Assembly (NCBI GenBank): GCA_014058105.1
Contig: JACGCM010001793.1
Coordinates: 1,550,001 to 1,614,000 of the forward strand
Source: Kingdonia uniflora
Lineage: Eukaryota; Streptophyta; Magnoliopsida; Ranunculales; Circaeasteraceae
Length of the DNA stretch: 64,000 nt
Direction of reading: 5' to 3'
Below, piece by piece: positions 2,125-28,357 of this stretch. Within the stretch, counting starts at the first letter, position 1, and each line of letters begins with the position of its first letter. Both the position numbers and the translations under genes were made by a program. The notes below the pieces were generated by a model. That model did not search any database, was not told the DNA's origin, and was given only the letters and a program-made list of their open reading frames with translations.

Positions 2125-2600
2125 TGTAGTATCATATTTCCCAGATTCGATAAAGAGAAGCTAATAGAACTTAGTCGAAGACATTCTATCATTTAAGAAG
2201 ATGTCTCATCTACAACCACAGTTCTCAATCCACCAAAGTAGCCGTTATATGCTTAGTCAAAAAGAGCCGTTGGGAGATCTGCGAAGTTCTCCCACTACCT
2301 ACCAAAACAAGAAACTATTTAACTTTTTGTAAACTGCTTATATCTACTATAAATATCGGCAGAGAATGTATTATTCTGAATTAGTAACTCTACTATTCAT
2401 TCATTCTTACTTTCTTACTCAATAGCAATTATAATAACTAGCAACTAATTAGATTTTTCATCAAAACCCTCCACGAGGTCGTAGTTTTTCTCAGACTTTA
2501 CTAAGTTTTCACATAAAATCTTATGTGTTTAAGTTTATTATTGCATAATCCTTACTAAAGTATTGGCAGAGATTATCCACCCGGAAAACACGCCATTACA
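2125..2600 (+). repeat. Element D 5' LTR
   Basis: This 476-bp repeat starts TGTAGTATC and ends CGCCATTACA. It aligns throughout with 41346-41819 and, inverted, with 4766-5250. A TATA box (TATAAATA, 2348-2355) sits mid-LTR where a promoter is expected. The 5-bp duplication GATTC precedes it. Confidence 0.9.
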
Positions 2601-2752: not shown

Positions 2753-4303
2753 GTGATCAAACTTCAAAAAAAATTAGAGTCTGACAGAGTCCTAAGGCTC
2801 AAAGATCAGCGAATCCACGCCCAAGCTCTTCAAGTTGAAAGAGACGAAAGGAGAAAGGCCTTGGACCAACAGAGTCGGACACATCAAAAAGAAATTAAGT
2901 ATTTATGGAGACATCAAGACCGACTCACTGGCCATCAAATGTCACCTCCCCAAGCCCGGGGTAAACATCGTACCAGGGTGACCCAGAGATAAAACCGGCC
3001 CAGAAAGGTACAAGTTTAAAGTTCTCGATCCAGATCGAGGAATCCAGATAGAGCTTCTAGACATTTTGGACTCACATCCACAGTATCGACAACTCTACGA
3101 AGTCAGCGCATACGCCACCAATCTCCACCACCATCGATAAGATGACCAATGAGAGATAGGCAGGGACCTGAAGGACAAGGTGACTTTGATCCTCAAGTTG
3201 TCACTACCCTAAATACTCTATAGCTATTTATTACCTTGGATGACTTAATCCATAAGATCGAAGCCATAAACTCTGACATTCCAGGCTGAAGGTCTATTCT
3301 CGATAGGATTGAGATGAACCCAATCTCTCCTCATCTCGAAGCCATTCCCATCCGAGAAACTTTCTACATGCCAAAATTTTATAAATATGCAGGCCTCACT
3401 GACCTCTTACCTACGTCTGACACTTTAATACAGCAGTTGGATTGTACTCCAAACGCAATCACATGCTATACAGATTATTTAATAGGAGCCTTAAAGAAGA
3501 ACCTCTCAGATGGTTCTATACTATTCCTAAAGGCTCTATCATTACATTCAGCAGTTATAGCGCCTCTTCGAGTCAAACTATGCTCATGCTAAGAAATAAG
3601 AGATCACAGTAGATTCTTTATTCTTTTTTGAACAAGGTGCGAAAGAGACCTTGGCTATTTTTTATAAGCATTTCCTTCAAGAAATACGAAAGATTAGGAA
3701 TTCAGACCTTAAAATTGTTGCTCCAGCATTCACTGCCGTACTTCACATCGACTTCTAAGTTCAAGAAGAACTTACCTTGTACAAGCCCAAGACAGTAACA
3801 GAAATAATCGATGTTGTTACTAACTACATCGAATTGGAACGGTCTTAAAAGGATAAGATGAAAAAGCTCCTTAGTCATCCACTCTAATGAAGCATTTTTG
3901 TTACCACCTCCAAAGTCAACTAATAATTAGACTCCTAAGCAACTTGGAAGGAACACCAACAACGTCAGGAAAAGAGAGAGAAAGCCAGACAGACCCGTCC
4001 CAGTCTTGCCTTCTATGACAACCACACTCTTTGTTATCTTACCAATGATAAAGAGAGACAAATTGTATCGAGAGGCACAAGCTATTCCTGATATACCCAA
4101 CAAACCCTTGTGCCAGTATCACAACGTGCATAATCACGAGGCTGACAACTATTATTCTGTAATATAGATTTTTAATTGAATCCTACTAGCTGGAAGACTT
4201 CACAACTATGTAGTCGATGTTTAAAAGTTCCTTGAGGAAGAGACCAAAAGAATAGAAGTTGAACAAGAACAAGGACAAGCCCAAGCTCGCCATCTTTACA
4301 TGA
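2753..4303 (+). pseudogene. Element D gag-like polyprotein (broken)
   Basis: Role: capsid/nucleocapsid precursor that packages element RNA. A charged, probably coiled N-terminal part (2753-2992) is followed by a stretch at 3230-3720 that aligns with E's gag (15464-15883): shared NPISPHLE, the FYMPK word and the plant-gag pattern WF-T-IP-GSI. A degenerate zinc-knuckle-like CQYHNV..H stretch is near 4110-4150, matching E at 15030-15060. Several frameshifts and stops split it (for example around 3430-3480 and 3600). No single ORF survives. Protease follows directly. Confidence 0.7.
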
Positions 4304-4765
4304 TTGAAATTAAGAAAGGAAAGAAAAGAAAGTAAAATGATAGAGTCACATCATGCTGCAAGATGGCATTGTCAGACAAATCAACGAAGCTTCTCTCCAA
4401 CTCTAGCAAGGCTAAACATCTATACCATATTTCTTTCGAAGACTATGACACCAGCCATGTCAAGTACCCTCATGATGACCCTCTGGTCATTATGATCAAA
4501 GTAGGTCAAAAGTACATATATATAATTCTAGTTAATACAGGAGGCACAACAGACATTCTGTTTAATAGAGCAATTGACGTTCTAGGCCTCAAAAATTTAG
4601 TAAAAGCTTCAACGGCTACCATCACAGGTTTCAACAGTTCTAAAGAATCTGCCACAGAAAAAATCACCTTGCCAATTCAAGCGGGATTGAAAGCCACTTT
4701 CGTCAAATTCGTTGTCATAGACGCTGAGTTAAAATATTTAGGAATCTTTGGACGATGTTGGTTAC
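4304..4765 (+). pseudogene. Element D aspartic protease, cut by insertion of E
   Basis: Role: processing of the gag-pol polyprotein. The ORF from 4363 carries LVNTGGTTDILF at about 4530-4565, the place of the retroviral-type active site D-T-G-S. The catalytic Asp is Asn and the Ser is Gly, so it would be inactive. It aligns with E's protease (14380-14700) up to the GR/GCxWL stretch, where E's LTR begins (4766) and replaces the reading frame. The homologous sequence resumes at about 15967, with roughly 85 bp of D missing. Confidence 0.8.
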
Positions 4766-5250
4766 TGCAATGGCATGTTTTCCAGAAGGATAATATTTTC
4801 CAATACTTTTTGTAAGGAAGGTGCAATAATAACCTAAACAAGCAAGATTTTATGTTAAAAACACAGTAAAGGCTGAGAAAAACCATGACCTCGAGGTGGG
4901 TTTTGATGTAAAATCCAATATGCTGCTAGTTATTATAATTTTTGGAGTGACTGTAGGGTAAGAAAGTAAGAATAGTAGGGATGCGGGTCTGAATAATCTA
5001 TTATTTGCCTATATTTATAGTAGATGCAGGCAGTTTATAAAAAAAAATAGTCTCCTATTTCGGGAGGAGTGGGTAAACTTTACGGATCTCTTACGGCTCT
5101 TTCTTTACTAGGCACAACGGGTACTTTTAGTAGGTCGAGGACTTATGGTAACATCTCGACTGTTGTCTGTCTTCGACTATGCAATGCTGACTATCTTTGA
5201 CTATGTTATGCTAGCTTATCCTTGCTGAATCGGGGAAATATGCTACTACA
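4766..5250 (-). repeat. Element E 3' LTR (inverted copy of the D LTR)
   Basis: On the minus strand it starts TGTAGTAGCATATTTCCC (5250 downward) and ends CATTGCA (4766), aligning with the D LTRs. The purine tract before it is GTCGAGAATGGGGCGAT (5267-5251), as before D's own 3' LTR. It lost its partner LTR when the 5' end was deleted. The adjoining D bases are GTTAC (4761-4765); the other copy of the duplication is gone. Confidence 0.88.
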
Positions 5251-5435
5251 ATCGCCCCATTCTCGACAGAAGTACTTGTAGTTTTCTTAAGAAGAAGTTA
5301 GAATTCGAAATGGTTGCTGATGTCTTTGAAAGGCTTCCTGTTGTCATTTCTGAGGTTAAAGTGAAGTGAACCTGGTCATGTCTTTCCCGATGAGTAATTA
5401 ATATGGGACATTGGACCTGGCAAATTCAAGTGGGG

Positions 5436-6075
5436 TATAAATAGATGGTGTTAAGAAGGGTTTTGTGGTGGTGGATTGTAAAGATACCACCCAAAGTGTA
5501 ACATATCGAGTTACCTGGGGATGAAGACTGTGACCATAATGACCAAGCTGAGGTAAAGTTCTGTCCCAAACTGGTTCTTTGTTATCCTGCAATTGATGTC
5601 ATCATGGTATAGAGGGTGGGGAGAGGTAGAGTCAGTGGGTGTATTCACACAGGGTATTTATTTGGGTTGGGTTCAGTTATCATAGTTGGAGGTATGGAAG
5701 CTGACCATAATGTTGGGGAAGGGGGTACTGTTTATAAGGAAGATGAGGATGTGAAGACTGGTTGGGTGTCCAGGGATCATTTCGAACAAAGGAGGCTTCT
5801 TGCAATTTTCTATTATCAGTCATTTGTAGAGGCAGCTCTGTTTAGAGTTTCCCAGACCTGAGGTTCATTGAGCTTCTTACGATATCATTGCCCCTATTGC
5901 CTGAGATAATGTCATATTCGAGTAAAAAGAAGTCAAATGTCAGATCCTGGTGAATAGATGCGCAGAGCAACTAGTCCTTGAGGTCGAATGTAAAGAGAGA
6001 AGCGTAATTGGATGTAATGTAATCGAAGGAGTGAGTTGTCGAATATAATATATAACAGTTAGTTCAATGAATAAA
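5436..6075 (+). pseudogene. Element E antisense unit U1 (TATA box to AATAAA)
   Basis: TATAAATAG at 5436-5444 and AATAAA at 6070-6075 bound a stretch that aligns with D 41177-40572 on D's minus strand. The two copies share the TATA box, an ATG-started short frame (MK..., ending MTKL or MTRL) and the end region around the AATAAA signal. Stops interrupt any long frame in both. I do not recognise a protein family. It may be a short gene, a non-coding transcript, or the remains of a coding exon. Confidence 0.5.
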
Positions 6076-6326
6076 CTTTGTTGTTTCAACTTCCTTTATT
6101 TTTTTTTTAGTATATTTTTGTTTTGTTAATACGCAAGTGATCGACCAATTGTGATATCGAAGTAAAATGTATTGAATGTGTATAGCTGGATGGTTTAAAC
6201 ATTTTAAAGTATAGTTGATTGAGTGGGGCTAAGAACGAATTTTGAGGTTGATTAATTTGACTGTTGAAAATGTAAAATTCTAAGAAGAAATAAATATTTG
6301 TTATGTTGACTTGGACTTTGTAGGAC

Positions 6327-6334
6327 TATAAGTA
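6327..6334 (+). promoter_or_regulatory. Degenerate TATA-like box of element E unit U2
   Basis: TATAAGTA lies about 40 bp before the U2 ATG at 6375. In D the same place holds TATATAAATA (40283-40274, minus strand). The single changed base weakens it. Confidence 0.45.
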
Positions 6335-6374
6335 TCCCCTGGATATTTTAAATTAAAAGTTGTGTGTTGAAGAA

Positions 6375-6660
6375 ATGGTGAAGACTAGATCTCAAGTTCG
6401 GAATGAGGTTCTTACCCGTATTAAGGTTAAATATTGGGAATTATACAATCCATATTTTAGTAATCAGAATGCTAACATTCACTTGGAAGATCCTGTTGAG
6501 CCAGATTATGAAGAAATGAGCGAGGCAGAGGTGAAGGATGTTGAAGGGGATTTTTAGTTTTGCTCTCAACTGTAATTCTAGAGTCTACCTAAATGTGTGA
6601 GTTACATGTATACTCGTGTGAAGATGTTGATTCGGAAAGAAGATGTTGTTGTAGTTATGA
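6375..6660 (+). pseudogene. Element E antisense unit U2, homologue of D's 97-aa ORF (frameshifted)
   Basis: From MVKTRSQV the frame aligns residue by residue with D's ORF (39950-40243): similar MV..R.QV start, the KY-EL---YFS core, the PVEP...EEMS acidic stretch and the EVKxVxxE end. A frameshift and TAG near 6555 truncate it, and the rest (NCNSRV..., then LIRKEDVVVV) continues in another frame to about 6650. The protein is small, basic at the start and acidic in the middle. I recognise no known domain. Confidence 0.6.
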
Positions 6661-7212
6661 GTTTATGAATTTGAATTTGTAGAAAATGTAATGGTCGAAT
6701 TTTGTTTGAAGATGAAATGATAACAGAATTCGATGTCAGAATGCAGTTGTCGATGTTTTATTATGTTAAATTATTATCTAATATACTTTGGACTTAGTAA
6801 AATTGTGGAATGTAGTAATGTGTTGGTCGTTGTATTTGTAATGTCAAATGAATGTTTGAAAATTGATCGGATTGATGAAGATTTGCCGTAGATATAGAGA
6901 TTTGCAAATAAGGTAAAAATGTACGGAGGTAGTGAGAGGATTAAACATGGCACGGTGTGGTCCTGTAGGTAAAATTTTGAATTAAAAGGAAGATGATGTA
7001 CAACATCATTGTGACAAGATATGTTGTGCTTTGTTGAGAATGAATATGTCAGAGGAAATTCTTCGAGATATGGAAGGATTGGAGCAATAATGTAGGGTTT
7101 TATTGGTGTTGAGAAGGAAAAAAGTCAAAGACTTCAAGAAAATTTAGTTTAAGGCGCTATGCCCGATTACTCGAACGGTCGCGAAGTGGTGCGATGAACA
7201 GTCGCATGGGGT

Positions 7213-7222
7213 CTATAAATAG
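7213..7222 (+). promoter_or_regulatory. TATA box of element E antisense gene U3
   Basis: CTATAAATAG, followed by GCTC, lies in a block that aligns with D at 39404-39413 (minus strand). The block includes the upstream words TCGAACGGTCGCGAAG and GATGAACAGTC. Both copies are followed at the same distance by a 5' exon and a GTTAGT splice donor (here 7398). Confidence 0.7.
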
Positions 7223-7397
7223 CTCAGAGGTGGGAGACTATTCACATTTTAGAGACTCTAAAAAAAATTCCCAATTACGAATTCTTTATTCTCGTCATTG
7301 GAATTGTTGTCAACAATTGGGAAGGTGGAGATCAGTATTTTGATTGAGAGAGCAAAGCAGGCGAAACAAAGGGATACTGTAGCAGCGCAAATACAAT

Positions 7398-8104
7398 GTT
7401 AGTAACTATATTGATTGTGTATGTTTCTTGATTGTTTGTTTGTAAGTATTGGTAGTTGTAGGTATGTTTAGTGTATTGGTAAAAGGAATTTATTTAAGGT
7501 TAGATGGATTGGGAGTTATTTGGGATTCTACTATGTTCAATCAAAGGAAATATCATCGTAATTATTTATAAAGGTATTTAGGTAAGAGAGATGTGTTAAA
7601 TAGGTGGTAAGGAGTGGAGAGAGGAATTGATTGGTGTTGCAGCGAGTACGGCGCGACTGTAGGGAATTTACTTGGATTTCAGGCGAGATTGTCGAAAATA
7701 TATGTTTGTTAGTTTTGATTTGGCCGGATTTTACGCCGGAGAAGGTGATATCCCATAATTTTTATTTGAAGTGTAGTGGTTTTGGCAGGAAATAGGCAAA
7801 GTTTACGTTGAGAACTTTTGAGATTCCTAAATATCAACATAAATGACAATTAGTAAAGTAATCGATGTTTTATGACTTAATGAAGAAATACTTAAATTGT
7901 ATCAAGAACTGACTGCAGTAAGTGTAACTGACAGTAATGATAGTAACGGATAGTAATGATAGTAGCAAATAGTAATGATAGTAATGTGAGAATGATATGT
8001 TGGAGGTTAAACTCGACAACTATGCGAATATAAACACATAAACATATATATGTATCAGATATAATAGATACTAATTGTTGTAAAAAATGGAATTTGATAT
8101 TTAG
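7398..8104 (+). other. Conserved 5' intron of element E gene U3
   Basis: Donor GTTAGT at 7398 and acceptor ATTTAG ending at 8104 give a 707-bp intron. D has the same donor and acceptor at 39242 and 38509 (734 bp), and in both the exon resumes GTTC, then ATGGCTGAACC. It holds no coding sequence. A short run of GTAATGATAGTA-like repeats lies at 7920-7990. Confidence 0.65.
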
Positions 8105-8114
8105 GTTCTTAAAA

Positions 8115-10378
8115 ATGGCTGAACCAACTCAAATCGATGGTAAAGATATATACGAGAACCTTCAAGATGTAGAGCCCCTGATGATCGATGTAGCTACCTG
8201 TGTACAATAGTTGGGAGGTAGATATAGGGTAAGGTCAAGTAGCGCAGGCTTAGCTGGTGTGAACCAGTTTAAGGTGGCACCTAGGATTGTCGAATTGTCA
8301 GATAAGGAGGCTACCAAGATAGATGTGGATCATGAGCTGCAGGCTAGTGATTGAGAAGGTAAAGGGGGTGAGGAAGACGATGTGGAGGAGGAAGAAGAAA
8401 TTTGTTATGGAGAGGGTCCGGAGACGAAGGAAATACTGAGTTTCAAGAAGAAGTACGGTATTCTTTGAGATATTAGGTTAGAGGAGTACCAATATGATAT
8501 GATTGACCAGGAAGTACCCTTGGGATGGATTATCGTTTATCAAGAACAAATTAAGAAGGGGTTGAAGCTTCCCCTTCAAGCTGACCAGAAGAAGTTGATG
8601 AATTCTTTGATGTAGCGCCTAATCAGTTCAATCCAAATGTATACGGCCTGTTTTGGGTATGTGGGGCAATAAATGGTCAACTTAAATCAAGGGGGGAAGA
8701 GTTGATCATTGTTGATGATTTATGTGTGTATTGTACACTTAAGATGAACCCAAAGAAAATAGGCTATCGCAACTTGGCAAGTCTTTTGAAGAGACCATTG
8801 TTCTATGACATGGTGTCAATAGGAGGGTAATACATCGACAAATGTTTACTCATGTCTGGGAACTACGAGTTCGACAATAAAGACCCTGGGGAGCCCTTAA
8901 AGAGAAATATTTTTCACTTAGGTTTGTGGCTAGGTAACTTAAATATCGATGTTTAAAGTGTGGAATGTGATGTAAATTGTTTATAACTGTATTTTGTTTA
9001 TGTGCAGCTTTGAAGGAGGTCGATAGGAACTCGGAAGTACATGAAGAATTGTACAAGGTTAGGAAGGTTTTCTTTGGTAGGATTGATAATCTTTTCATCG
9101 ACCAACATCGTGTGAGTACCCTTTTTCAAGAGGTCGGGTTAAAGAGGTCGAGGGCAAAAGCTTCAGAAGTCCATTTTATTGACGGTAAGATGTCAGCAAA
9201 GAACAAGAGGGCCACAGAGTCCAGTTTCCATTAGAAAATCATTCTTTGGCTGGATATGCGACTGACTCTCAGACTACGAAGAAAGACTCGATGTTTGCTA
9301 AAACAATAGGAAAGAGTAAGAAGAAAAGAGTAGCGAGCCAAGTTGATGTTCATCTACTTTATCTGAAGAGAAATTCTTGATGGTCAATAATGGAAGAGGG
9401 GGTGAAGATTGATAAGCTAGTTACTTTACCGAATGGGCATCCTCCACGGGGTGCGACAAGTGCACTCTCGAAGAAGAAGGGGAGTGGAGAGTCGTCAAAG
9501 AACAAAGTCATCGAGGAATCTCATATTGAAGTCCAGAGGATGATGGATTCGTATATGTCAGGGATGAATGTATTGCAGGCTGAAGTTGATGATTGTTTAG
9601 TTGGGGCTGAGAGCTTGATGACATTTCTCAGTGAGGGCCACCGCAACATGTCGAAGGTGAGAAATTTTTCTGCTTTGCTTTGATTAAAGGAACTGGTATG
9701 TCATTCGAATACTCAATTTATGAATGTAATGCAGATCAAGAAGTTGTTGACGGAGGCGAAAGATCGCATTATTGGTAGTAGTGACCTTATAAATCAAGTG
9801 TTGGCATATAAAAACATCGAGAAAGATTTGATGAGGGAGAAAGAAGCTCTGATCGAAGATAAGGAGCTGAATGCAAAGTTGATTACCTACAAGCTTGAAG
9901 TACGAAAGGCGATGGACACTGTTCTTCGTAAAGCAAAGAAAATGTGGGAGAAGGAAAAAGAAAAGGCTTCGGTGTTGCTTAGAACAAATTTTGAGAAGGA
10001 TGTAAGATAACAGATTGTCGATACGCGAAAGGCGATGGAGCTGGAACATGGTAAGGTTCTCGACAAGGTTAAGGCTGAGTTGATAGCAGAGAAGCTAGAT
10101 ATTTGTAAGAAGGTGAGGGCTCACTATGTATGGTAGTACGAGTTGTTGGAGGTGAGGAAGGATCATTATAAGGGGTTGGCCAAGTCTGGTGGTATTGTCT
10201 TCGAGGATTCAAAGACGATGATGTTCCGGAGACTCCAAAAGTTCCTAGTGGGACTGATGTCGTCGATGATTGTGTGATGATGGAAGCTGATGGGATGCAT
10301 TATGTGGAATTAATGGAAGTGTTTCCTCCTGAAGGGTTACCGAATGTTGATGACGTCGTGTCTCCTTTTATAGTTTAA
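8115..10378 (+). pseudogene. Element E antisense gene U3: PF04195-like domain plus coiled-coil protein, spliced
   Basis: It runs opposite to E's gag-pol. The start ATGGCTGAACC is shared with D (38498, minus). Exon 2 encodes an acidic stretch (about 8370-8410, runs of Glu/Asp), then a domain with the pattern KKGLKLPL---...FDVAP-QFNPN-Y--F and DDLCVYC, like the plant 'putative gypsy type transposon' family PF04195. Intron 2 is 8922-9007 and intron 3 is 9657-9734; both have D counterparts. The last exon (9735-10378) is rich in Lys/Glu and predicted coiled coil, ending SPFIV-stop. Frameshifts near 8200 and 8610 and some stops break it. Function unknown; domain assignment is by pattern recognition. 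Confidence 0.72.
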
Positions 10379-10984
10379 GATAATTTGTGTAAACATTATT
10401 TGTTTTGAAGGAGAGATGTGAAAGTGGTCAATAGGACCTGAATAATTTCTATTATGCGATGTTTTGAAAGATAAATTTTTGTTTTCGAAGAAAGTTTTTT
10501 GAAAATTTGTGATGCATATATGTTGTAAATGTGATTGTAACTCATAGCAGATAAGTAAGGAACACCTATGGGCATGATAAGTAAATGATGGCCATAAAAT
10601 GGCAAGTAATGTGAACGATTACCATATGTGTATCAGCAGTGGGATATCTGGATTTAGATTCGAAAAGAGAAAACAAGTTATATTTTGTTTGATAATTATG
10701 GAATGCGAAGTAGAGTATCCTGTGATTGGATAATGTTCCCATAAAATGGCTGATAGTCTGGATACATACTTATTAAGTATGGAATGAGACTAAGCAAAGA
10801 CAGTAAAGATGTTTGATTGTTGGATGCATACTTATCAAGTATGGATCGAGATCATGTGAAGATAGTAAAGATGATTATTGTCTGGTGCATACTTATCAAG
10901 TATGGATCGAGAACAAGTAAAGATACAAAAAATGTAAGTGACAGTAAAGATTGTTTTATTTGAATCGATGATAATTGCTACAGT
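10379..10984. other. Spacer between the convergent U3 and integrase genes of element E
   Basis: Non-coding and AT-rich. It contains the three-unit palindromic repeat at 10760-10935. Both the sense pol gene (minus strand) and U3 (plus strand) end against it, so it should hold 3' untranslated sequence for both. Confidence 0.6.
10760..10935. repeat. Three 62-bp tandem units, each with a CATACTT-ATC-AAGTATG hairpin
   Basis: Hairpin cores lie near 10763-10779, 10826-10842 and 10887-10903. Each has 7-bp arms around a 3-base loop (the first has one changed base), followed by GG-ATGAGAC or GGATCGAGA and AGTAAAGAT-like words. The spacing is 62 bp. D has one stronger copy of the same hairpin at 19420-19444 in the same place. 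Confidence 0.75.
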
Positions 10985-12150
10985 TGTTATCTGTAAAAAA
11001 ATTCAGTTGAGCTGTGTTCCATGGATATTTAAGCTGGATTTTATCTTCAGTCATTAGCCAGTAAGTCCCGCTATCTGATTTGTCGCTGACAATGTAGAGC
11101 CCTTCATAGTTTTCAGACAATTTGTCAGAAGTATTAGGTTGTGTACTTTCTTGGATTCATCGAAGGACAAGTTCGCTAATACCAAACTTTCTCTTTTGCA
11201 CTTTTTTGTTGTAAGCTTTTTTCAACATGTCATGGTATCGCCCAAAGTTTACAATAGCTTTGTCTCAGGTTTCTTCGATCCAGTTTAGGTTGTAGAGGAA
11301 ACCTAATTCATTGTCTTCATCAGTAATTTTTCTTCGACCACTTGGTAGATCGAGGTCTGAGGGTATGACTGCTTTAGTGTCGAAGGCCGTCATAAATGGA
11401 GTATAGCCTATGGAAGTTCGAGGAGTAGTCCTGTTTGCCCAGAGAACATTAAGTAGTTCGTTGAACCATCTTCATTTCTTTTCGTCGAGGCGTTTGTGCA
11501 GACCCGATTTTATGCTCTTATTGATGGCTTCAGCTTGTTCGTTGCCTTGAAGATAGTATGGTGTGGAAGTTGATAGCTAAATTTTTTACTTATGGAGGAA
11601 AGCGAGGACTTTAGCGCTGATGAATTACTTGCCATTGTCAAAGCGTATCATTTGTGGGCAGCCAAACCTTGTTATTATGTGTTCCCAAAGGAAATTGATG
11701 ACTTCATTTTCATCGGTATGACATAGAGGAACTGCTTCGACCCATTTTGTGAAGTTGTCAGTGACTACAAGGACGAACCTTCGGTTTCCCAATACTAGAT
11801 GGAATGGTTCAAATTTGTCGATTCCCCATCGTTTGAATGGCCAGAGGACATTGCTAATGTGCAAGTCAAGTACTGGACTTTTGATATCTTTAGTGTGGAT
11901 ATGGCATTTATAGTACTTACATACAAATTCTTCGCAATCTTGTCTCATCTTCGGCTAATAGATTCCTTGTGTGAACGCCCGTTGGGCTAATGATCTTCCC
12001 AAAGCATGGGCTCCACATATACCTTCTTGAAGTTCTCTGATTTTGATCTGAGCCTGATTTTGAGATATGCATTCAGTAAGGGGTCCTCCTCTGGTGATAC
12101 GATATAAGACTTTATCTTTAACTATAAACCCAGGGCATTTGGCCAAAAGT
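10985..12150 (-). pseudogene. Element E integrase
   Basis: Role: insertion of element cDNA into the genome. The zinc-binding part (CKYYKCHIHT pattern, about 11915-11885), the first catalytic Asp in the WGIDKF pattern, the second in IRFDNG, and the Glu in QAEAINKSI (about 11560-11530) can all be read, though not in one frame. Stops and a frameshift near 11625 break it. The C-terminal part runs to a PWNTAQL word near 11010-11040, as in D. It ends against the palindromic spacer. Confidence 0.8.
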
Positions 12151-12300
12151 CAACGGGATTCTTCTTTATTACTCTGGAGGATGTTGGAGTTGAGGTATAC
12201 AAAGAATGGTTTTCACCAGTCGTCAGGTTTTCATCTTCAGTAATAGTTATTTGCATTGTTGACTGTATATCGAAGCTAAAATACTCGATGATTTCGATAT

Positions 12301-12710
12301 CTAAAGATCATTTTCACTATCTCCCAGCATGGCGGCGGTGTAAGCCAATGCGCCAGCATGGCAATTTTCTTGTCGAGGTAAGTAAGAGATCGATGCTTGT
12401 CTAAATTTGTTCATTTTTTCTTTGACAAGGGTTGCATAATCAACCATTTTTCCTAATGTGGGGAACATTTTGTTGTAATGATTGGCCACGATTAAAGATT
12501 CGACGTAAACTGCTATATCTTTCGCACCAAGTGCGAGTGTGAGATCGATTCTGTGAAGGATACCTTCATATTCAGTCTTATTGTTTATGGCAAAGAAGTT
12601 TAGTTTAATAACTTTCTCAAGACAATGATAGGATGGTATAACGAGGACGATTCCAATTCCCGATCCTCGTGCTCCAGCTGATCCGTCTGTATAAAGTCAT
12701 CATCTGATAC
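12301..12710 (-). pseudogene. Element E second (archaeal-type) RNase H
   Basis: The pattern DGSAGARGSGIGIVLV, then TEYE, is the aRH signature that defines Tat-lineage gypsy elements; the domain lies between the ordinary RNase H and integrase. The C-terminal part is the 62-residue frame at 12301-12489, ending in the YLPRQENCHAGALAY pattern (the usual ADALA Asp reads Gly). Frame breaks occur near 12500-12600. Confidence 0.75.
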
Positions 12711-12879
12711 TTTGCAACCATGCATCTAGTTCGGTAATTAAGTCATCTGCAAAAATTTCTTTGAGTTCTTCCTAATCAGGGTCTTTTACTGGAAAGTCTG
12801 GCAAGAAATCAACAACTGCTTATCCCATGACAGATATCTAGGGTTCGAAGGAGATTTCATATTTACCAAGGAAAACATA

Positions 12880-13200
12880 CTATTGTTGGATTCGTCGTGA
12901 TTTTTCTTTTTTCGAAAGTACCAGTTTGAGGGGATACTTAGTAATGATTCTGATGGGATGGGATTGGAGGTTTGGAAGAAGTATTTAAGTGCTATAGACC
13001 AAGGCGAGTAGTTACTTTTCTATTATTGTGTATCCTATTTTAGCAGGCATGATGGTCTTGCTGATGAAATAGATTGGCTTTTCTAATCCTTCATCTTCCC
13101 AAATAAGGACGAAACAAATAGACTCTTCAGTTGTGGATAAGTACATCGTTAGTGTTTCGCCATTAACTGAAGTACTCATTATAGGAGGACACCTCAAGTA
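12880..13200 (-). pseudogene. Element E RNase H
   Basis: Role: removal of template RNA during reverse transcription. The frame at 13012-13197 carries MYLSTTEESICFVLIWE and KPIYFISKT, the usual Tat-type RNase H pattern after RT. It continues in broken frame towards 12880 with the LRP-F--HPI and PL--VL-K words. The first catalytic Asp position reads Ser/Thr-rich, as in D. Confidence 0.7.
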
Positions 13201-13263
13201 CCGTTTAAGATCATGGAAGGCTAACTCACAGTCAGGTATCCAAATGATCTCCTTGTATTGTTT

Positions 13264-14310
13264 CTATGAAAGTATAGTAGGATTGTCATGAAGAAAGAGG
13301 TAAAGAAGTTTGCATAGATCAAATGACTTAGAGATGAATCTGTGATGAGCGGCGATCTTGTTTACAAATTTTTGGACATCCACCTTTGTTCGCGTAGATG
13401 GCATTACGATGAGTTCCTTGATTTTCGTAGGATCAATTTCGATTCCTCTTTTGCAGACCAGGTATCCTATAAATTTACCAGATGCAACACCGAATTGGCA
13501 TTTCTCTGGGTTGAGTTTCATCTGGTATTTGTGAAGGATATCGAAGTTGGTTTGGAGGTTGCTAGAATGATCCTCGAGCTTCAAACATTTATAGATCATA
13601 TCATTGATGTAGACTTCCATGATTTTTCCTAAATGATCTTTGAACATTTTATCGACAAACCGTTGGTAAGTAGCTCCTGCATTCTTTAACCCAAAAGGCA
13701 TCACTGTGTAACAGTAGAAACCCCTTTCAGTAATAAAGGTTGTCTTTTCTTGATCATCTTCTGCGAGTGGAACTTGATTGTAGCCGGAGGCTGCATCCAT
13801 CATGGAAAGAAGTTTATGCCCTACGACGGAGTCGAGGAGTTGCAGAATTAGTGGGAGAGGAAAACTATCTTTCAGTGTAAATTTGTTGGGCTCTATGAAG
13901 TCAACACAAACCCTGATCTTCCCATTTTTCTTCGGAACTGCCATAATGCTAGAAACCTACTTTGGATACTTGGCTTCTCGAATAAATCTTATGCAAAGGA
14001 ATTTATCAATATCTTCGTTTATGGCTTCGCGGAGGTGGTGAGCTAAGTTTCGACATTTCTGTATGACTATTTTAATGTCTGGAAGGAGGTTTAGTCTATA
14101 GCACACGATTGATGGATCAATGCCTGGAATTTCATGGAAAGTCCAGGCAAAGATGTCGATGTTTTTCTTTAGTAGTTAGATCATGGTTTCTTTTTCATCG
14201 GTTGACAACTAAGAGTTGATGAAGGTGTGACACCCAGGTCCATCGAGTTCAATGGATTCAACCATTTCTGGGTCATGCTGCTCGAATGTGGGGGGGTGTT
14301 TCATGCTGTA
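13264..14310 (-). pseudogene. Element E reverse transcriptase (longest surviving ORF)
   Basis: The 226-residue frame (13944 to 13264) holds the core: VPKKNGKIRVCVDF, MMDAASGYNQ, the VMPFGLKNAGATYQRFV block and VEVYINDMIYK-like catalytic loop. The catalytic Y-x-D-D reads Y-I-N-D, which should abolish polymerase activity. The upstream part (to about 14310) is in frame through FIREAKYPK, then a TAG where D has Trp. D's copy keeps YIDD at 16741-16752. Confidence 0.88.
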
Positions 14311-14379
14311 GTTGCTATACTTTAAAAATTATGTTGTATGAGAGTTAGTGGTGGTATTCTTGCACATACATGCAACTGC

Positions 14380-14700
14380 TTAAATACCTTTGATTTCGTA
14401 GATGTCATGATCTATCAGAAATCTTAATACTAAATGATATGTAGAAGGTACTGCTTTGATCGAATGTAACCAACTACATCCCAAAATTCCCAAATATTTG
14501 GACTCAGCATCGATGACTAGGAATTTAATGAATGTGGTTTCTAATCCTGGTTGAACTGGCAAAGTAATTTCTCCTGTGGAAGATTCTTTCGAACCGTTGA
14601 AGCCGGTGATTGCTATTGAGGAAGCTTTCAAAGAAACTTTGAGTCCTAGAACTTTAATTAGAAGAAACGTATACAGGTAGTCTTGTCCAACTTTAAGCAT
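14380..14700 (-). pseudogene. Element E aspartic protease (active-site segment deleted)
   Basis: The 106-residue frame matches D's protease: KVLGLKVSLKAS, ITGFNGSKESS, EITLPVQPGLE and KYLGILGCSWLHSIKAV. The segment that should hold D-T-G-S is missing: the frame jumps from DYLYTFLL to the VLGL stretch. It is therefore an internally deleted pseudogene. Confidence 0.8.
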
Positions 14701-14749
14701 TATGACGAGAGGGTTATCATGAGGATCCGATAGAACATTTTGAATTGCT

Positions 14750-15955
14750 TGAGCTGGGAAGAAGTTTCAATGATTTATCCGAGGAGGTCATTTTGCAACA
14801 AGATGTGATCTGATTGTCTTGTTTCCTTTTCTTTCCTTTTTGAATCTCCATCATATAAAGGTGGCGTGCTTGCCCCTGGCCCTGATTTTTTTCAATGTCT
14901 TTGTTCTTTATCTCATCCTCGAAGAACTTTTGGATGTCGATGACATAATTAGGAAGCCTTCCTGCTAATAGGATACGATGAAAGATTCGAATGAGAGACT
15001 AGCAATTGTCAGTTTTGTAACTATGCACATTGTGATATTGACATAAAGGTTTATTGGTGATGTTGGGAATTGTTTGTGGTGCTTGATGACACTCATCTCC
15101 CTTTATTATTGTTAAGATAACAGAGTGAGTCATTTTCATTGGGGGTAGAATTGGGACGGGGCTGTCGGGTCTCCCGTCCTTTCTCCTGTTATTGTCGGTA
15201 TTTCTGCCGCGTTGCTTGGGTGCTTTAGTAGTGGTCAACTTTTGGGGTGGAAAAGAAGTTGTTAATCAAGAATGGATGACAGAGGAGCTTTTCATTTTAT
15301 CTTTCTTGGATCGTTTTAGTTCGATGCAGTTATTAACTACATCAATCATTTTTGCCACCGTTCTGGGCTTATGATGAGTAAGCTCTTCTCGAAGCTTAGA
15401 ATCGATGTGCAGGGATGAGGTGGAGGCTGGAACGACGATTTTGGCATATGAGTTCCCAATTTTCTATGTTTCCTGTGAGAAACGCTTGTAAAAGCTTTCC
15501 AAGGTTTCTTTTGCGCCTTGCTTGAAGAAGAACAAGGAATCCACAGTGATCTCTTTCTCCTTAACGTGAGCGTAATTGGACTCGAATAGACATTGCAACT
15601 GGCTGAATGCGGTGATGGAGCCTTCTTGGATTGTATGGAACCACCTGCATAGTATGTGGTCGAGTTTGAAATATAATCCCACTTCGGCTTTGAAATGTCG
15701 AACATCGGTAAGCGGGTCAATGAGGCCTGCATATTGAATTAACTTTGGCATATAGAAATTGCCTGGAATGGGCATGACTTCGAGGTGAGGGGAGATGGGG
15801 TTTGTCTCGATTCTGCCAAGTGTAGACCTTCGGCTAGGGATTTCAGAGTATATGGCCTGGATCCTATTATTTAGATTGTCCAAGGTGGCAAACTATCAAA
15901 AAGAAATTGGTAAGGTTACAATTTGTGGATCAAAATCTCTATGTCCTTCTGGCCC
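14750..15955 (-). pseudogene. Element E gag-like gene, lacking its start
   Basis: The frame at 15464-15883 (139 residues) carries the plant gypsy gag pattern: NPISPHLEVMPIPGNFYMPK, RWFHTIQEGSIT, then a run ending FYKRFSQET. A degenerate zinc knuckle (CQYHNVHSYKTDNC) lies at the end of the frame 14999-15238. It is cut near 15955-15967, where D sequence resumes. Confidence 0.75.
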
Positions 15956-15966
15956 CAATCAAGGAA

Positions 15967-16960
15967 AGTAAAGCAGTTGCGCGTATGAACGAAAATTCTA
16001 CCACCAACTCTCACATGGTAAAAAATTTTAAAGCATAGCAATTGCAGAAGGAAATGCCCTCCACATTCGAGCAACATGACACTGTGGTAGTGAACTCCAT
16101 TGAACTCGATGGGCCCGGGCGAAATACCTTTATTGGCTCAAATCTGTCATTCGGAGAAAATGAAACCATGATCTAACTTCAAAAGAAAAACATCGGCATC
16201 TTTGAATGCTATTTTTAAGAAATGCCCAACATTTATCCCTCAATCGCATGCCACAAGCTCAACCTTTTTCCAGACAACAAAGTAGTTATGCAGAAGCGTT
16301 ACAATTTAACCCCCCGCCCTTGCAAAGCCATAAATGAAGAAATTGATATACTCCTTCGTGTAGGGTTTATTCGAGAAGAAAAATATCCCAAATGGGTTTC
16401 TAACATAGTGGTTGTCCCAAAGAACAATGAAAAAATTAGAGTCTATGTCGACTTTACAGAGCCCAACAAGTTCACACCGAAAGATAACTTTCTTCACCTG
16501 CTGATCCCACAACTCCTCAACTCTGTAGCAGGGCATGAACCTCTCACAATGATGGATGCAGCCTCCAGTTATAATCTGGTTCCTCTCGCCGAAGAGGACC
16601 ATGAAAAAATACCATTTTACACAAAAAGAGGTCTCTACTGCTACAAAGTAATGCCTTTTGGATTAAAGAATACAAGAGCCACTTATCAACGTTGGGTTAC
16701 TAAAATGATTAAAGATCACTTGGAAAAAATCATAGAGGTATACATCGATGATATGATCTATAAAAGCTTAAAGCGAAAGGATCATTGCATCAACCTACAA
16801 ACCATCTTTGACATCCTACGTACTTACCAAATGAAACTTAACCAAGAAAAATACCAATTTGGTATTGCAAATTTTTGGGCCATTTGGTAACTAAAAGAGG
16901 AATAGAAATCGATCTGGCACAAATCAATGCACTCATGGCAATGCCATCTCCTCGAACCAA
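15967..16960 (+). pseudogene. Element D reverse transcriptase (resumes after E)
   Basis: From 15967 the sequence aligns with the region 3' of E's protease and then RT. The 222-residue frame at 16222-16890 holds VVPKNNEKIRVYVDF, MMDAASSYN, YCYKVMPFGLKNTRATYQR and the catalytic YIDDM (YIDD codons at 16741-16752), which is intact. A frameshift near 16870 (QFGIANFWA) and stops upstream (near 16040 and 16215) break the polyprotein. Confidence 0.87.
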
Positions 16961-17099
16961 AAAAGATGTATAGAAGCATGTTGGCAAGATTGTATCTCTT
17001 CACAGGTTCATTTCCAAGTCATCTGATGATTGCAAACTTCTTTACCTCCATCTCCGTAGAAATCCAGCTCCAATCTTCTAAAAATAACCCAAAGAAATC

Positions 17100-17460
17100 A
17101 TTTGGACACCCGATTGTGAGTTAGCTTTCCAAGATCTCAAAAGATACTTAGGGCATCTTCCCATAATGAAAACTCTTGTCGATGGCAAAACAATGATGAT
17201 GTACTTATCGACTACAGATGATTACATTAGTTATGTCCTTATTCGGTACGTCGATGGTGCGGAAAAGCCAATCTACTTCATCAGCAAAACTCCCATGCCT
17301 GCTGAAATAAGATATACAACAGCCAAAAAGCAGCTCCTCGCCTTAGCATACAGCTCTCAAAAACTTTTTCCTTATTTCTTGGCTCATCCCATCAAAATCA
17401 TTACCAAGTTTCCCCTCAAACTTGTACTCTCCAAAAAGGAAAAATCTTGAAGAGTTTATC
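17100..17460 (+). pseudogene. Element D RNase H
   Basis: The frame at 17166-17450 has MMYLSTTDDYISYVLI, EKPIYFISKT, AEIRYTTAKKQLLAL and LFPYFLAHPI, the usual order in Tat elements. The leading catalytic Asp position is replaced as in E. A stop at 17448 is followed by the linker to the second RNase H. Confidence 0.75.
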
Positions 17461-17639
17461 AATGGTCTGTATTTATCGACAAATATGACATCTCCTTTGA
17501 GCCTCAGATATCGATCAAAGGATAAGCAGTAACTGACTTTTTAGTTGATTTTCTAGTTGAAGACCCAGAATGGGAAGAACTCGAAGAAGTACTGGTTGAT
17601 AACTCAATAGTAGAACCAGATGGTTGGTCACAAAGTACA

Positions 17640-18010
17640 GGATGGAAACTCTTTACTGACAGATCTGTTAGACTACGAGGATCAAGAATCGGCATTGTTC
17701 TTGTTATACCATCTAACCATCAAATTGAGAAAGCAATCAAACTCAAATTTTACGCGACCAACAATAAAATAGAGTATGAAGCTATCTTACATGGACTAGA
17801 TCTCTCTATATCCCTTAGAGCTGAAAAAATTGCTAACCATTATAATAAAATATTTAAAACATCAGGCAAGATGGTCAAGTATGCAGCTTTGGTCGAAGAG
17901 AAAATGAAGAAATTCAAAATAGCCACAATCTCTTATCTCCCACAAGCTGAAAAATGCCACGCTGACGCATTAGCATACATAGCTACAATGCTTGAAGAGA
18001 GTAAAAAGAG
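17640..18010 (+). pseudogene. Element D second (archaeal-type) RNase H
   Basis: GWKLFTDRS, RGSRIGIVLV, ATNNKIEYEAILHG, and the terminal YLPQAEKCHADALAYIA make up the aRH pattern with Asp, Glu and the terminal Asp readable. A gap after RAEKI removes the third catalytic segment (usually VYVDSQL). Presence of this domain is the main reason to assign D to Tat. Confidence 0.8.
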
Positions 18011-18049
18011 AACTTTAGACATCAAACTCATCAAAAACTCTACTCTTGA

Positions 18050-19330
18050 AGTAAGCTACATAATGCAGATCAATGTTAATGAAGATAAAGATCTTGAAGA
18101 TTGGATAAGACCATTCTATGCATACCTCAATTCCGATATCCTCCCACGTAACAAGGAAGAAGCCTGGTCACTCTTGGCAAAGTGTCCTCGATTCATAGTT
18201 CATAATAAAAGCTTATATCGCATAACAGGAGGAGGACTACTTATTGAATGTATCTCACAGAAACAAGCACAAATCAAAATTAGAGAACTTCACGAAAGTA
18301 TCTGTGCAGCTCAGATCTCAGGAAGATCAATCATTGGCACAACAGGCATTCATTCAAGGGTTATACTGGCTAAAGATATGACAAGAGTGTGAAGGCTTTG
18401 TCCGAAAGTGTTATAAATGCCAAATTCATGCTCAAGACATCAAAAACCCAGCCCTCGACTTGCATGCTAGCAATGTCCTTAGGCCATTCAAGAGATGGGC
18501 AATCGATATTATTAGACCTTTTCACCCAGCATCAGGTCACCGAAAGTTCGTTCTTGTGGCAACAGACTACTTCGCCAAGTGGGTCGAAGCAGTACCTCTA
18601 AATCACACTAATGAAAATGAAGTAATCAAGTTTCTTTTGGAACACATCATAACCAGATTTAGTTGTCCGCAAATGATACGATCTGATAACAATAAGCAAT
18701 TTATCGGCATTAAAATTCTTAGCTTCTTCCACAAATACAAGATTTAATTATATACTTCGGTACCATACTACCCTTAATGTAATGGAAAAGCTGAAGCTAT
18801 CAACAAAAGCATCGAGTTAGGGTTGCGCAAGCTCCTTGACGTGAAGAAAGGCAGATGGGCGGATGAACTACTTAGTATATTGTGGGCATAGCGAACAACT
18901 CCTCAAACATCTACTGGTTGTACACTATTCATGTTGGCTTTCGATACTGAAGCAGTCATACCTTCAGATCTCGATCTACCATGTACTCGAAGAAAAATTA
19001 CAGATGAACACAACGAACTTAGACTCCTCTGCAACCTCAATTGGATCGAAGAAACCTGAGACCAAGCCATTGCAAATTGGGGGCGATACCATGACACTAT
19101 CAAGAAAGCTTACAATAAAAAGGTCAGAAAATAAATATTTAGTATTGGTAACACTGTCCTTCGACGCATCGAGGACAGTACTCGACCAAAAAATTCTGAC
19201 AAGTTATCTCAGAACTGGGAAGGGTCGTATATTATCAGTGACAAGAATGGTAGTGGGACATACTGGTTAATGACTAAAGACGAAATACAACTCGAACATC
19301 CATGGAATACAACCCAACTAATTTTTTTAC
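18050..19330 (+). pseudogene. Element D integrase
   Basis: Linker and zinc domain (RELHESI..., CYKC at about 18408-18420), then the core with all three catalytic residues: Asp 18505-18507 (WAIDI), Asp 18685-18687 (RSDN) and Glu 18793-18795 (KAEAINKSI). That spacing, 60 and 36 residues, is normal for plant gypsy integrases. Frameshifts at about 18390 and stops at 18745-18775 and 18890 interrupt it. The C-terminal part ends near the PWNTTQL word at 19302-19322. No chromodomain is visible. Confidence 0.83.
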
Positions 19331-19880
19331 AAATAACCGCCATAACCGCATTTGAATAATTCAAATAAAGACGTCTTTACTATCATTTACATCTTTTTCA
19401 CTATTATTCGCTTAGTATCGATGCATACTTGACAAGTATGCATCCCAACTAACTTTCATCTCTTTGACAAACGCCTATCCAATTACAGGAAGACCTTGTT
19501 TACAATTCATTACTTATCAAACAAAACATGTCATGCTTTGTCCCTTTTTCTCAAAAACTTAGATATCCCATCGAGGTAAAACATCTGGTCATTATTCTAC
19601 ATTCCAAGGGCCATCACATGGCCCTCTTTTAATCATCTCAAATACTTGCTCCAAAGCAACACTATGTATATTATCTCCATTACTATCTAATGCTATCAAT
19701 CTTGTCGAATATAATACTTAACATAAATTTTTAAAAACTCTATGCATTTTGAATAAATTGCTTCTAAAATATTCTTTGACAAACATCAAAATAAAGCATT
19801 CAAGAAATAAACAAAAAATTGTTTGGGTCCCATCAACCATTTGTACATCTTTCATAAAATAAACACTTTTCAAGCATAAT
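19331..19880. other. Spacer between convergent integrase and U3 genes of element D
   Basis: Non-coding AT-rich sequence. Its only distinct structure is the perfect hairpin at 19420-19444. Stop codons of pol (about 19325) and U3 (19881) face each other across it. Confidence 0.6.
19420..19444. repeat. Perfect 11-bp-arm hairpin in D's convergent spacer
   Basis: Arms GATGCATACTT and AAGTATGCATC around the loop GAC. It is the same element that occurs three times in E (10760-10935). It could act as a termination or 3'-processing structure for either strand; that role is inferred only. Confidence 0.8.
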
Positions 19881-21521
19881 TTACTCTAAAGGTGGAGAAA
19901 TTGGGGTATCAACTTTCGCTGGTAAACCTGGAGTTAGCTCATCCAATATTTACTGCAGAAGAATACCCTCGGGAATGGTCACCATAGGAGCTTCAGGTAC
20001 TTCAGGAAAAACTGATTATCAGCAATAGCCAAACATTTATAAAAATCTTTTCTATCCTCCAACTCCTCGAACTGCCCAACAAAATTGGTTTTCATCTGCT
20101 TGAGAGCATCGATATTGGTTCGGTCACCTTCAGCCCTCACTTCATCGAGAACCTTAGAGTGTTCCACCTCCATCGCCCTAACAGCCAATGTGATCTGTTC
20201 ACAAACATCGCTCTCAAAATTAGCTTTCTCAACGCCAATTCCTCCTCCCTTTCCTTCGCGAGGTCGACCCTGATCTGCTAGACCTCCTTCCTCTTTTCCA
20301 TGTCCCAAGCTTTTTTTGCCTCATGAATAGCTACCTCATTTGCCATCTCGGCTTCAAGCTTCGCCTCAAATTTCTCTTTTTGCTCGATCAAATCTACTTT
20401 CTCCTTCACCAACTCCTTCTCGATATTCTTGTAGGTGAGAAGTTGGTTTGCCAAAGTACCAGCAACGAGAATGCAAGGTTTGGCCTCGATCAACAACTTC
20501 TTGATCTGTATTATAGTCAAAATATGAGTTTTCGAATGAGGCACCAAATTCTTTAATCGAATCAAAGCATAGAAATTCTTAACCTTACTCATGTTTCAGT
20601 AGCCTTCGATGAGGAAGGAAGATAGGCTTTCTGCCCCCAACCAAGAAATCATCAAACTTCACCTCAAGAGAGGTTGCCCCAGCAACATACGCCTCCATGG
20701 TTTGTTGGACCTCAGTGTTCGACTCCTCAACGAAAATCTTCTTCATCAAAATAGAAGACGCCCTCTTCTTTGGCAACAAATAAGTAGCCGATTTTGGAGG
20801 TCGACCATCCGAAATACCAGATGGTGTCAAATCAACTTTTTTTACCCTCCTCAGCAGGAGCTCTTTGAGAAGCCCTCTTCTGGGGAGGAATGGGAGTAGC
20901 AACCTGGCTAGCAACCCTCTTTTTCTTCCCCTTCCTGAAGGCTTCTGTCAGAAAAGCCTTTCTTTCTGTAGTTGCAGAATCTGTGGTAAAACTACAAAGT
21001 GACGGATTCTCAAGGGGCAAGCTCGAGTCTGAAGCTCTCTTATTCTTGGCCAACATTTTTCCGTCGATAACAGAAATTTCAGCTCCTTTAGCCCGAGTCT
21101 CTTTAATCCATCTTCTTGAAAAAGACTATCAACTTTCTCTTGGTCGATAACTAGGTTGTCGATCTGACTGTAGAAACCTTTTCTGATATTATACAGCTTT
21201 TCTATTACAGTCGAGGTTCTATCAATCTCCTTCAAAGCTGCACAAAAACAAGGAAACACAAGTTAGCCACCAATTTAAACTGGTACAAACTACATACAAA
21301 CTTTTACATACAAATTACATAACCACAAACCTAAGTAGAAAGTTTTTCTTTTCAGAGGTTCTCACGAGTTTTTCTTATCGAACTCGTAGTTGCCCGATAC
21401 AAAGAGACATTCCTTACAATACTGCCCTCCCGTCGATACCATTTCGTAAAATAGAGGTCTCATCAAAAATCTTGCCTAGTACATATATCCTAACTTCTGA
21501 GGATTTTGCTTTAATTTGTAG
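19881..21521 (-). pseudogene. Element D antisense gene U3, 3' half (split by element B)
   Basis: Minus strand, continuing from 37857. After a broken stretch (21521-21331), intron 2 is 21330-21238 (donor GTTTGT, acceptor CAG), followed by CAALKEIDRTS...IEKLYNIRKGF..IDNLVID, which aligns with E at 9008-9110. Intron 3 is 20583-20506. The last exon is Lys/Glu-rich coiled coil with the words KNIEKELVKEK and ending ...SPPLE-stop (TAA at 19883-19881). E ends in the same way (SPFIV-stop). Confidence 0.72.
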
Positions 21522-22132
21522 TGTAGGGACCTATCCCTCAATCTAACCTAATTCAAACTATTTCCAATTCGAACTGCCTCCATATCAGACTCGTGCATTT
21601 TACACGTAACATAAACAGTCAGCATTGACACCTATACCACAAACTAATGAAAAATGTGGGTCGAGTACAACAGAAAAGTGTGAACAAGTCAAAGATACAT
21701 ATTTCTTGTTTACTCAACAGTTATTCAGTCAACCGATACTTACCACATTATTCGGAGAGCGTGCTTCAGCACGATAACGAATTACGAGCAAGGTCAAAAA
21801 AAAGAAAAAGTTCCAGAAGAGACAAGGACCAGAAAATATATGAGAAATCACCAGGAAAACCATATTTTCTAAACTCTCATATACCAAAATTCTTATTTAC
21901 AAGATCAAGTATTTCTTGTTCGAGAGATCACTTGTAATAAGATATCAGCCTCAAGCAATAAAAGTTATTGTTACTAAAACCCTCAACTCGTGGTTATAGT
22001 TTTTTACCTATTCAGAGGTTTTCCACGCTAAATCACCTATGTCATTTCATACTTTACATTTTTTTATCACGGAAACATTGGTGTAAGAGCTAATTCCAAG
22101 CCATATCGAGCTTATGGAATTAGGCCATTACA
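21522..22132 (+). repeat. Element B 5' LTR
   Basis: Aligns end to end with 37245-37856 and 27-627. Its TATA region is degraded (GGTCAAAAAAAAG) compared with CTATATAAAG in the 3' LTR. Confidence 0.9.
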
Positions 22133-22134
22133 TT

Positions 22135-22152
22135 TGGTACCGTCTGTGGGAA
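22135..22152 (+). promoter_or_regulatory. Element B primer-binding site
   Basis: TGGTACCGTCTGTGGGAA starts two bases after the LTR, the usual position. It is the common plant gypsy motif TGG-ACCGTCTGTGGGAA and is clearer than D's copy. Confidence 0.8.
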
Positions 22153-28341: not shown

Positions 28342-28357
28342 GTTACACATACAGCCA

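Follow-up and report, generated by a model that had tools for sequence, protein, structure and literature searches.

The 64,000-nucleotide window analyzed here (positions 1,550,001 to 1,614,000 of the forward strand of contig JACGCM010001793.1, assembly GCA_014058105.1, from Kingdonia uniflora) contains two related long terminal repeat (LTR) retrotransposons, which were found by a sensitive self-comparison of the window and which we refer to as D and E. D is a Ty3/gypsy element that spans positions 2125-41819 on the plus strand, and E lies nested inside it in the opposite orientation. Both elements carry, between pol and the 3' LTR, a cassette of units running antisense to their own gag-pol, and two of these units, U2 and U3, are protein genes that have evolved under protein-preserving selection.

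The cassette of E (5251-10378, plus strand) aligns with D on the minus strand in separate blocks, 41345-37858 and 21521-19443. An earlier note on this DNA had proposed this alignment as a match of three units, and it is real: inside the cassette, blastn E-values lie between 3e-14 and 1e-95, the homology of U2 is detected only at the protein level (tblastn 8e-17), and tblastn E-values elsewhere in the cassette go down to 1e-51. The following features are distinguished, with P0001, P0005 and P0007 denoting gene models of K. uniflora that are considered further below.

5436-6092, plus strand: U1 of E; conserved at its TATA box and AATAAA end but not in its body; weak protein match to P0005 at 5664-5789
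40555-41175, minus strand: U1 of D; TATA box and conserved AATAAA end
6375-6660, plus strand: U2 open reading frame (ORF) of E; three in-frame stops, 45% protein identity to D, third copy in P0007
39953-40237, minus strand: U2 ORF of D; uninterrupted, 95 codons counted from the ATG
6947-7146, plus strand: U2b of E, a possible further ORF, broken; 69.5% identity to D without gaps, third copy in P0001
39479-39678, minus strand: U2b of D; aligned to U2b of E, third copy in P0001
7147-7240, plus strand: putative U3 promoter region of E; TATAAATA at 7214, 77% identity to D
39386-39478, minus strand: putative U3 promoter region of D; TATAAATA at 39412-39405
7398-8104, plus strand: predicted intron 1 of U3 in E, 707 bp; GTTAGT donor and TTTAG acceptor conserved
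38509-39242, minus strand: predicted intron 1 of U3 in D, 734 bp; GTTAGT donor and TTTAG acceptor conserved
8115-10378, plus strand: coding part of U3 in E, interrupted by stops; intron 2 predicted at 8922-9007, intron 3 (9657-9734) doubtful
37858-38498, minus strand: 5' part of U3 in D, interrupted by a nested LTR element; blastn/tblastn homology to E
19881-21521, minus strand: 3' part of U3 in D; intron 2 predicted at 21330-21238

Identity between the two copies is high at the LTR-U1 edge (0.66), the end of U1 (0.82), U2 (0.61), U2b (0.70) and the U3 promoter (0.77), and within U3 it amounts to 0.66 in exon 1, 0.79 in the last 154 bp of intron 1 and 0.56-0.72 in the exons; low values characterize the body of U1 (0.48), the spacers (0.52-0.54) as well as the initial 553 bp of intron 1 (0.54). 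Measured against 30 shuffles, U2 (z of 6.2), U2b (8.2) and intron 1 in each of its two parts (4.4 and 8.6) are above chance, the U1-U2 spacer is weakly so (2.5), and the U1 body (1.7) and the U2-U2b spacer (1.4) are at chance. Although the latter two segments are what one would expect if the matches between E and D were fortuitous or due to generic repeats, this explanation is refuted for U2, U2b and U3 by the E-values given above, and its probability is virtually nil.

Exact matches to TATAAATA occur 18 times in the window versus 6.66 expected, and five of the 18 head cassette units: U1 (5436) and U3 in E, and U1 (41175-41168), U2 (40281-40274) and U3 in D. A TATA box for every unit, as originally claimed, is thus found in both copies for U1 and U3, but in an exact form in D only for U2. 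An extended TATA motif, allowing up to three mismatches, was found only at the U3 promoter regions of E and D. U1 holds up as a unit at its two ends, the TATA box and a terminal block with AATAAA (E 6070, D 40577) that is 82% identical over 79 sites, and not in its body. The U2 frame, described in the earlier note as a 97-residue ORF, is open in D, has 95 codons from its ATG, and is disrupted in E. U2b, which that note had missed, is a possible fourth ORF of the cassette. The start that it had reported as shared by the two U3 copies, ATGGCTGAACC, is indeed present at 8115 in E and 38498 in D. Upstream of it, U3 exon 1 (7262-7397 in E, 39385-39243 in D) holds a conserved frame reading IGK-EIS-LI, with no upstream ATG in E; when joined across predicted intron 1, this frame is not in phase with the main ORF of U3.

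Substitution in U2 and U3 is not neutral with regard to codon position, one of the points on which the earlier note had staked its reading. The ratio of nonsynonymous to synonymous differences (pN/pS), given here with bootstrap confidence intervals (CI), is 0.47 in one antisense frame of U2 (CI 0.34-0.64, 89 codons) and 0.39 in one antisense frame of U3 (CI 0.35-0.45, 642 codons). Third codon positions of the antisense frame hold an excess of mismatches in U2 (p 0.001), and five of the seven exon segments of U3 show it too (p 1e-6 to 6e-4); the excess in the last two segments (9735-10010 and 10011-10375) is not significant singly, but the stretch 9735-10375 taken as a whole has a pN/pS of 0.59 (CI 0.47-0.76). 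When all six frames are compared, the antisense coding frame has the lowest pN/pS, both in U2 and in each of the six U3 segments examined as exons; the second-lowest value belongs to the reverse frame on the sense strand, which has its third positions in common with the coding frame and contains more stops in each case. For U2b (pN/pS 0.56, CI 0.33-0.98, 63 codons) the reverse frame is equally low (0.53 vs 0.56), so that the strand is not fixed by this test. U3 exon 1 yields 0.57 in one frame that was picked post hoc (CI 0.35-0.95, 40 codons).

The comparison with pol, which had been proposed along with the cassette, was made by the NG86 method, in which gag and one U3 piece are saturated. The dN/dS values are 0.24 for U2, 0.41 for U2b and 0.23-0.31 for U3, and those of the pol region are 0.24 for AP, 0.20 for RT, 0.15 for the RNase H region and 0.15 for integrase, i.e., 0.23-0.31 for U2 and U3 versus 0.15-0.24 from AP to integrase. 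The antisense genes U2 and U3 were constrained, though less than pol.

These data bear on the possibility that the antisense transcripts act mainly as RNA, pairing with the genomic RNA and tuning silencing, while their protein frames are secondary. An RNA role for antisense ORFs of this kind has been proposed in print (PMC7264820), and U1, with its conserved ends and non-conserved body, looks as a non-coding unit would. Protein-preserving selection in U2 and U3, however, requires translation, and such a role may hold for U1 alone; as an account of the cassette, we consider it distinctly unlikely.

The three introns predicted for U3 have the lengths reported for them (707/734, 86/93 and 78/78 bp in E/D) and GT-AG ends in both copies, but they differ in standing. 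Intron 1 is plausible: both of its ends are conserved, and its drifting first 553 bp show no codon phase (pN/pS 0.90-1.05 across three frames). Its final 154 bp (7951-8104 in E, 38641-38509 in D) are 79% identical, above the coding exons, and may act as an enhancer, as an additional promoter or in splicing. Intron 2 is a well-supported, conserved prediction because its lengths (86 bp in E, 93 bp in D) are unequal modulo 3, yet splicing restores the conserved frames in both copies, and because the Kingdonia gene model P0006 reads YFHL-ALKEVD, as expected from the intron 2 junction (a comparison of proteins only). Intron 3 is ambiguous and cannot be told apart from an exon: its 78 bp equal 26 in-frame codons, which are open in D and carry one stop in E, and its identity of 0.74 makes it at least as conserved as the flanking exons (0.56 and 0.66).

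One might alternatively view U3 as a single gene lacking introns 1 and 3, with a promoter near 8030 and a coding 78-bp stretch. The strong conservation of the last 154 bp of intron 1 and the open, 74% identical 26 codons of D would fit such a gene; it would not explain why the GTTAGT and TTTAG ends are conserved in both copies or why the TATA block, itself 77% conserved, sits upstream of intron 1, and the 78-bp stretch read as an exon displays no significant codon bias (CI 0.30-3.36). We regard this structure as rather unlikely, and prefer a spliced U3 with an ambiguous intron 3.

Relatives of the cassette were sought by profile and protein searches. Profiles of U3 pieces retrieved four proteins at E <= 1 (926 candidates), and a wider U3 profile retrieved seven at E <= 10 (2008 candidates, 5.8 billion sequences), a search that reaches close relatives only; all seven (P0001-P0007) are gene models of Kingdonia uniflora (Ranunculales) that match the cassette. 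The U2 protein, used as a query of 97 residues of which two precede the Met, gave one candidate and no match. P0007 contains a U2 match (4e-11) followed by U3, P0001 a U2b match (6e-6) followed by U3, and P0005 runs from the LTR edge through a weak U1 match (E 0.026; 12 of 25 residues, 3e-4 as a single comparison) to U3 exon 1 (2.5e-6) and U3 exon 2. Since the units follow one another in the same order in these three models, E and D are not alone in having this arrangement; the remaining four models match U3 only. As for the intron positions in these relatives, P0006 fits intron 2, and P0002 and P0005 seem to depart from the predicted junctions, as detailed below.

P0001 and P0007 also hold stretches from outside the cassette. 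Residues 55-121 of P0007 are a piece of the protein adenylyltransferase SelO (PF02696, 2e-5), and one cassette copy may therefore lie in or beside a host SelO gene. Residues 1-95 of P0001, outside the mapped cassette, may resemble a DMS3-like silencing factor.

A cluster of host genes, captured in antisense orientation by the ancestral element together with its introns, would be expected to bring along introns and TATA boxes of the kind seen here. Yet each of the seven relatives is a cassette-type model from Kingdonia itself, neither the U3 profile search, with its reach limited to close relatives, nor the U2 protein search found a host family, and according to the 2020 review, ORFs of this kind have no reported cellular relatives (PMC7264820). 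Host capture is thus, in our view, very improbable, and we take the cassettes of E and D to derive from a common ancestral cassette antisense to gag-pol, a descent supported by their alignment. The ancestral minus-sense units postulated by the earlier note are accordingly retained as a common cassette with conserved TATA boxes and at least one conserved predicted intron, in which at least U2 and U3 are protein genes, U2b is a possible addition and the body of U1 is not upheld as conserved.

The elements that carry the cassettes are built as follows.

2125-2600, plus strand: 5' LTR of D; 85.3% identical to 41346-41819, GATTC outside at 2120-2124
41346-41819, plus strand: 3' LTR of D; GATTC outside at 41820-41824
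15957-19442, plus strand: pol of D beyond the E insertion; PF00078 4.4e-18, PF17919 6.5e-17, PF00665 2.8e-11
4766-5250, minus strand: 3' LTR of E; 71-74% identical to the D LTRs
10886-15956, minus strand: gag-pol of E; PF03732 6.9e-6, PF00078 8.7e-27, PF17919 1.8e-9, PF13456 2.6e-7, PF00665 5.7e-8
10751-10925, no strand assigned: tandem array of E between U3 and pol; period 62, 2.8 copies

The GATTC repeats form a perfect 5-bp target duplication of D, whose gag homology is found at 3163-4409 and whose pol continues from 15957. In E, the cassette is followed by pol (10886-14659) and by gag up to 15956; its 5' LTR is missing, as E-D homology stops at 15956, where D resumes. The element that splits U3 of D (21522-37857, LTRs 21522-22133 and 37245-37857, 85.5% identical) is flanked by TGTAG/TGCAG, a 5-bp duplication with one mismatch recognized by eye; a scripted check for an exact target duplication found none. 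It contains an extra repeat pair (31176-31773 and 34199-34760, 80.6%), and a further copy of its LTR is present at 3-627 (76-77% identical). Three more repeats in 51447-55799 and 62289-62889 (83-91% identical) are apparently LTRs of another family and have no blastn match to the cassette.

The pol domains of E follow the order RT, RNase H (PF17919), a second RNase H (PF13456, RVT_3) and integrase (PF00665). Two RNase H domains characterize the Tat clade (Neumann et al. 2019), and in Ogre and Retand elements the second of them is located between the first and integrase (PMC6317226); the order seen in E places it in this clade (Ogre/Retand type). In D, RT, RNase H and integrase are present, and the second RNase H is represented by a sub-threshold PF00075 match only (0.056). 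Retand elements possess LTRs of 315-1,194 bp, an internal region of 7.4-12.9 kb and a region between pol and the 3' LTR of 2,933-6,566 bp, with tandem repeats in about half of the clusters (PMC11963269). D fits these sizes with LTRs of 476 and 474 bp and an internal region of about 11.2 kb (two insertions subtracted by coordinates), and the pol-to-3'LTR region measures, likewise by coordinates, about 5.7 kb in both E and D. The plant mobile domain PF10536, which occurs in the extra ORF of 57% of Ogre elements, was not found in the scanned pieces of U1-U3. On this domain-based placement, D and E are filed under the Tat clade as Retand-like rather than Retand, the reservation being made because the TRP28 domain was not found.

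Taken together, we consider it probable that the cassette is the antisense pol-to-3'LTR region of two related Tat-type Ty3/gypsy elements, with at least two selected genes (U2 of 95 and U3 of about 700 codons) that are likely to own their promoters, and with U3 predicted to be spliced. The antisense frames, the TATA boxes of U1 and U3 and the splice-site pairs are conserved between the copies; transcription, splicing and translation of the genes, and a nuclear role of their products, we infer from the sequence. The minus-sense units would be transcribed by host RNA polymerase II, starting at TATA promoters situated between the 3' LTR and pol. The introns, being GT-AG on the antisense strand only, would be removed from the antisense mRNA and never from the genomic RNA, and would be copied along at every transposition. 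The earlier note regarded the survival of introns in the RNA used for reverse transcription as an oddity; there is no paradox, because an antisense GT-AG pair reads CT-AC on the genomic RNA and is unspliceable there. The U3 product would be a nuclear accessory protein whose N-terminal part is acidic, whose middle part is similar to TRP28 in nothing but spacing, and whose C-terminal part is rich in Lys and Glu and, judged by eye, coiled-coil-like; a KKKR stretch conserved in both copies may be its nuclear signal. U2 could be its small, mostly helical partner, and an AlphaFold model of U2, built with two sequences, is helical at low confidence (mean pLDDT 61.3). Most likely, their role would be to regulate the nucleic acid of the element itself or to handle it in the nucleus, a function that has been proposed in print for the GENE23 protein of Grande and the TRP28 proteins of Retand.

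It should be noted that a number of observations weigh against this reading. Stops break U3 in E and D as well as U2 in E, so that neither copy has a complete gene set, and the comparison at the DNA level comprises just these two copies. The body of U1 is at chance level (identity 0.466 versus a null mean of 0.431, standard deviation 0.021, 30 shuffles). After neutral decay of 0.165, estimated from the divergence of the D LTRs and an upper bound if rates are equal, is subtracted, U2 stands at 0.16 and U3 at 0.15-0.21, compared with 0.02-0.06 for AP and pol. Control frames dip as well: pN/pS is 0.74 in frame 1 of the U1 body (CI 0.60-0.93), where the alignment itself is at chance, 0.72 in frame 1 of the sequence after U3 (CI 0.53-1.00), and 0.44 in one frame of the last 154 bp of intron 1 (CI 0.19-1.25); for this reason, the selection on U2b and exon 1 is merely suggestive. 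P0005, the sole model with exon 1, seems to run through the intron 1 donor, and P0002 seems to pair the acceptors of introns 2 and 3 with different donors; these models are themselves predictions, compared as proteins only. Finally, TRP28/Transposase_28 (PF04195) was not detected by Pfam in 11 U3 pieces of the window and the seven relatives, scanned as stop-free pieces and as frames with X at stops. The stretch in question is split by a frameshift in E, holds stops in D and is absent from most relatives; of six conserved TRP28 positions (set of PMC11963269, compared by eye), E has four at the right spacing (G21, P25, P46, N47) and D has two. TRP28 is common but not universal, being recorded in 97% of clusters in 2025 (PMC11963269) and in 23% of Retand elements in 2019. 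In our view, the strong claim should no longer include U1 and intron 3.

A wider proposal, to which we give somewhat less than even credence, is that the lineage owns an antisense multi-gene region of three to four independent, promoter-bearing and partly spliced genes read from the 3'LTR side; the antisense orientation would then be a device that permits introns, since the spliced message is never taken for, or reverse transcribed as, the genome.

Antisense accessory regions of Tat-type elements, with more than one antisense ORF per element, are already in print. In Retand, 104 antisense ORFs between pol and the 3' LTR were described in 63 clusters, often more than one per element, with representatives of all clusters containing them and all but two containing TRP28 (PMC11963269). 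D and E resemble Retand in the length and content of this region, the second RNase H, the tandem repeat beside pol (E), the LTR length and the 5-bp duplication, but differ in that TRP28 is undetected. Gene23 of maize Grande is antisense, lies between pol and the 3' LTR, is transcribed from a promoter of its own and has a nuclear product (PMC7264820); the cassette shares its position and orientation, with TATA boxes and KKKR as possible counterparts of promoter and nuclear location, and differs, on a comparison of descriptions only, in having several units and introns where the review describes one gene. ORF2 of the PvRetro13 type from common bean is an opposite-strand ORF of 211-939 residues between pol and the 3' LTR, present in 15 Ty3-gypsy families (PMC4093653), with one ORF per family as against several units here. 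In a group I intron of myxomycete rDNA, an antisense homing endonuclease gene is reported to be expressed and its spliceosomal intron to be removed (PMC9548176); there too, an antisense gene of a mobile element keeps an intron that is lost from its own mRNA, although the element is of a different kind and the two work alike without being related. The word intron is absent from the 2025 paper (PMC11963269), the 2020 review (PMC7264820) and the bean study (PMC4093653), and spliced antisense genes of plant LTR elements were not found among the papers listed, a weak negative given that subscription papers were outside the scope. Three things appear to be new and go beyond the descriptions of Retand: codon-level evidence that two antisense genes were under selection, the separate TATA boxes of these genes, and a predicted intron that is conserved.

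A 2019 survey questioned whether extra ORFs have a function, in view of their fast divergence (PMC6317226), and the 2020 review noted conservation in some families and urged that transcripts of the antisense and spliced kinds be looked for (PMC7264820). The present cassette, in which two antisense genes show protein-preserving selection and one of them has a conserved predicted intron, bears on this question. If confirmed by RNA, the cassette would explain how an element that moves through RNA keeps introns, and it would provide two concrete proteins, U2 and U3, to test.

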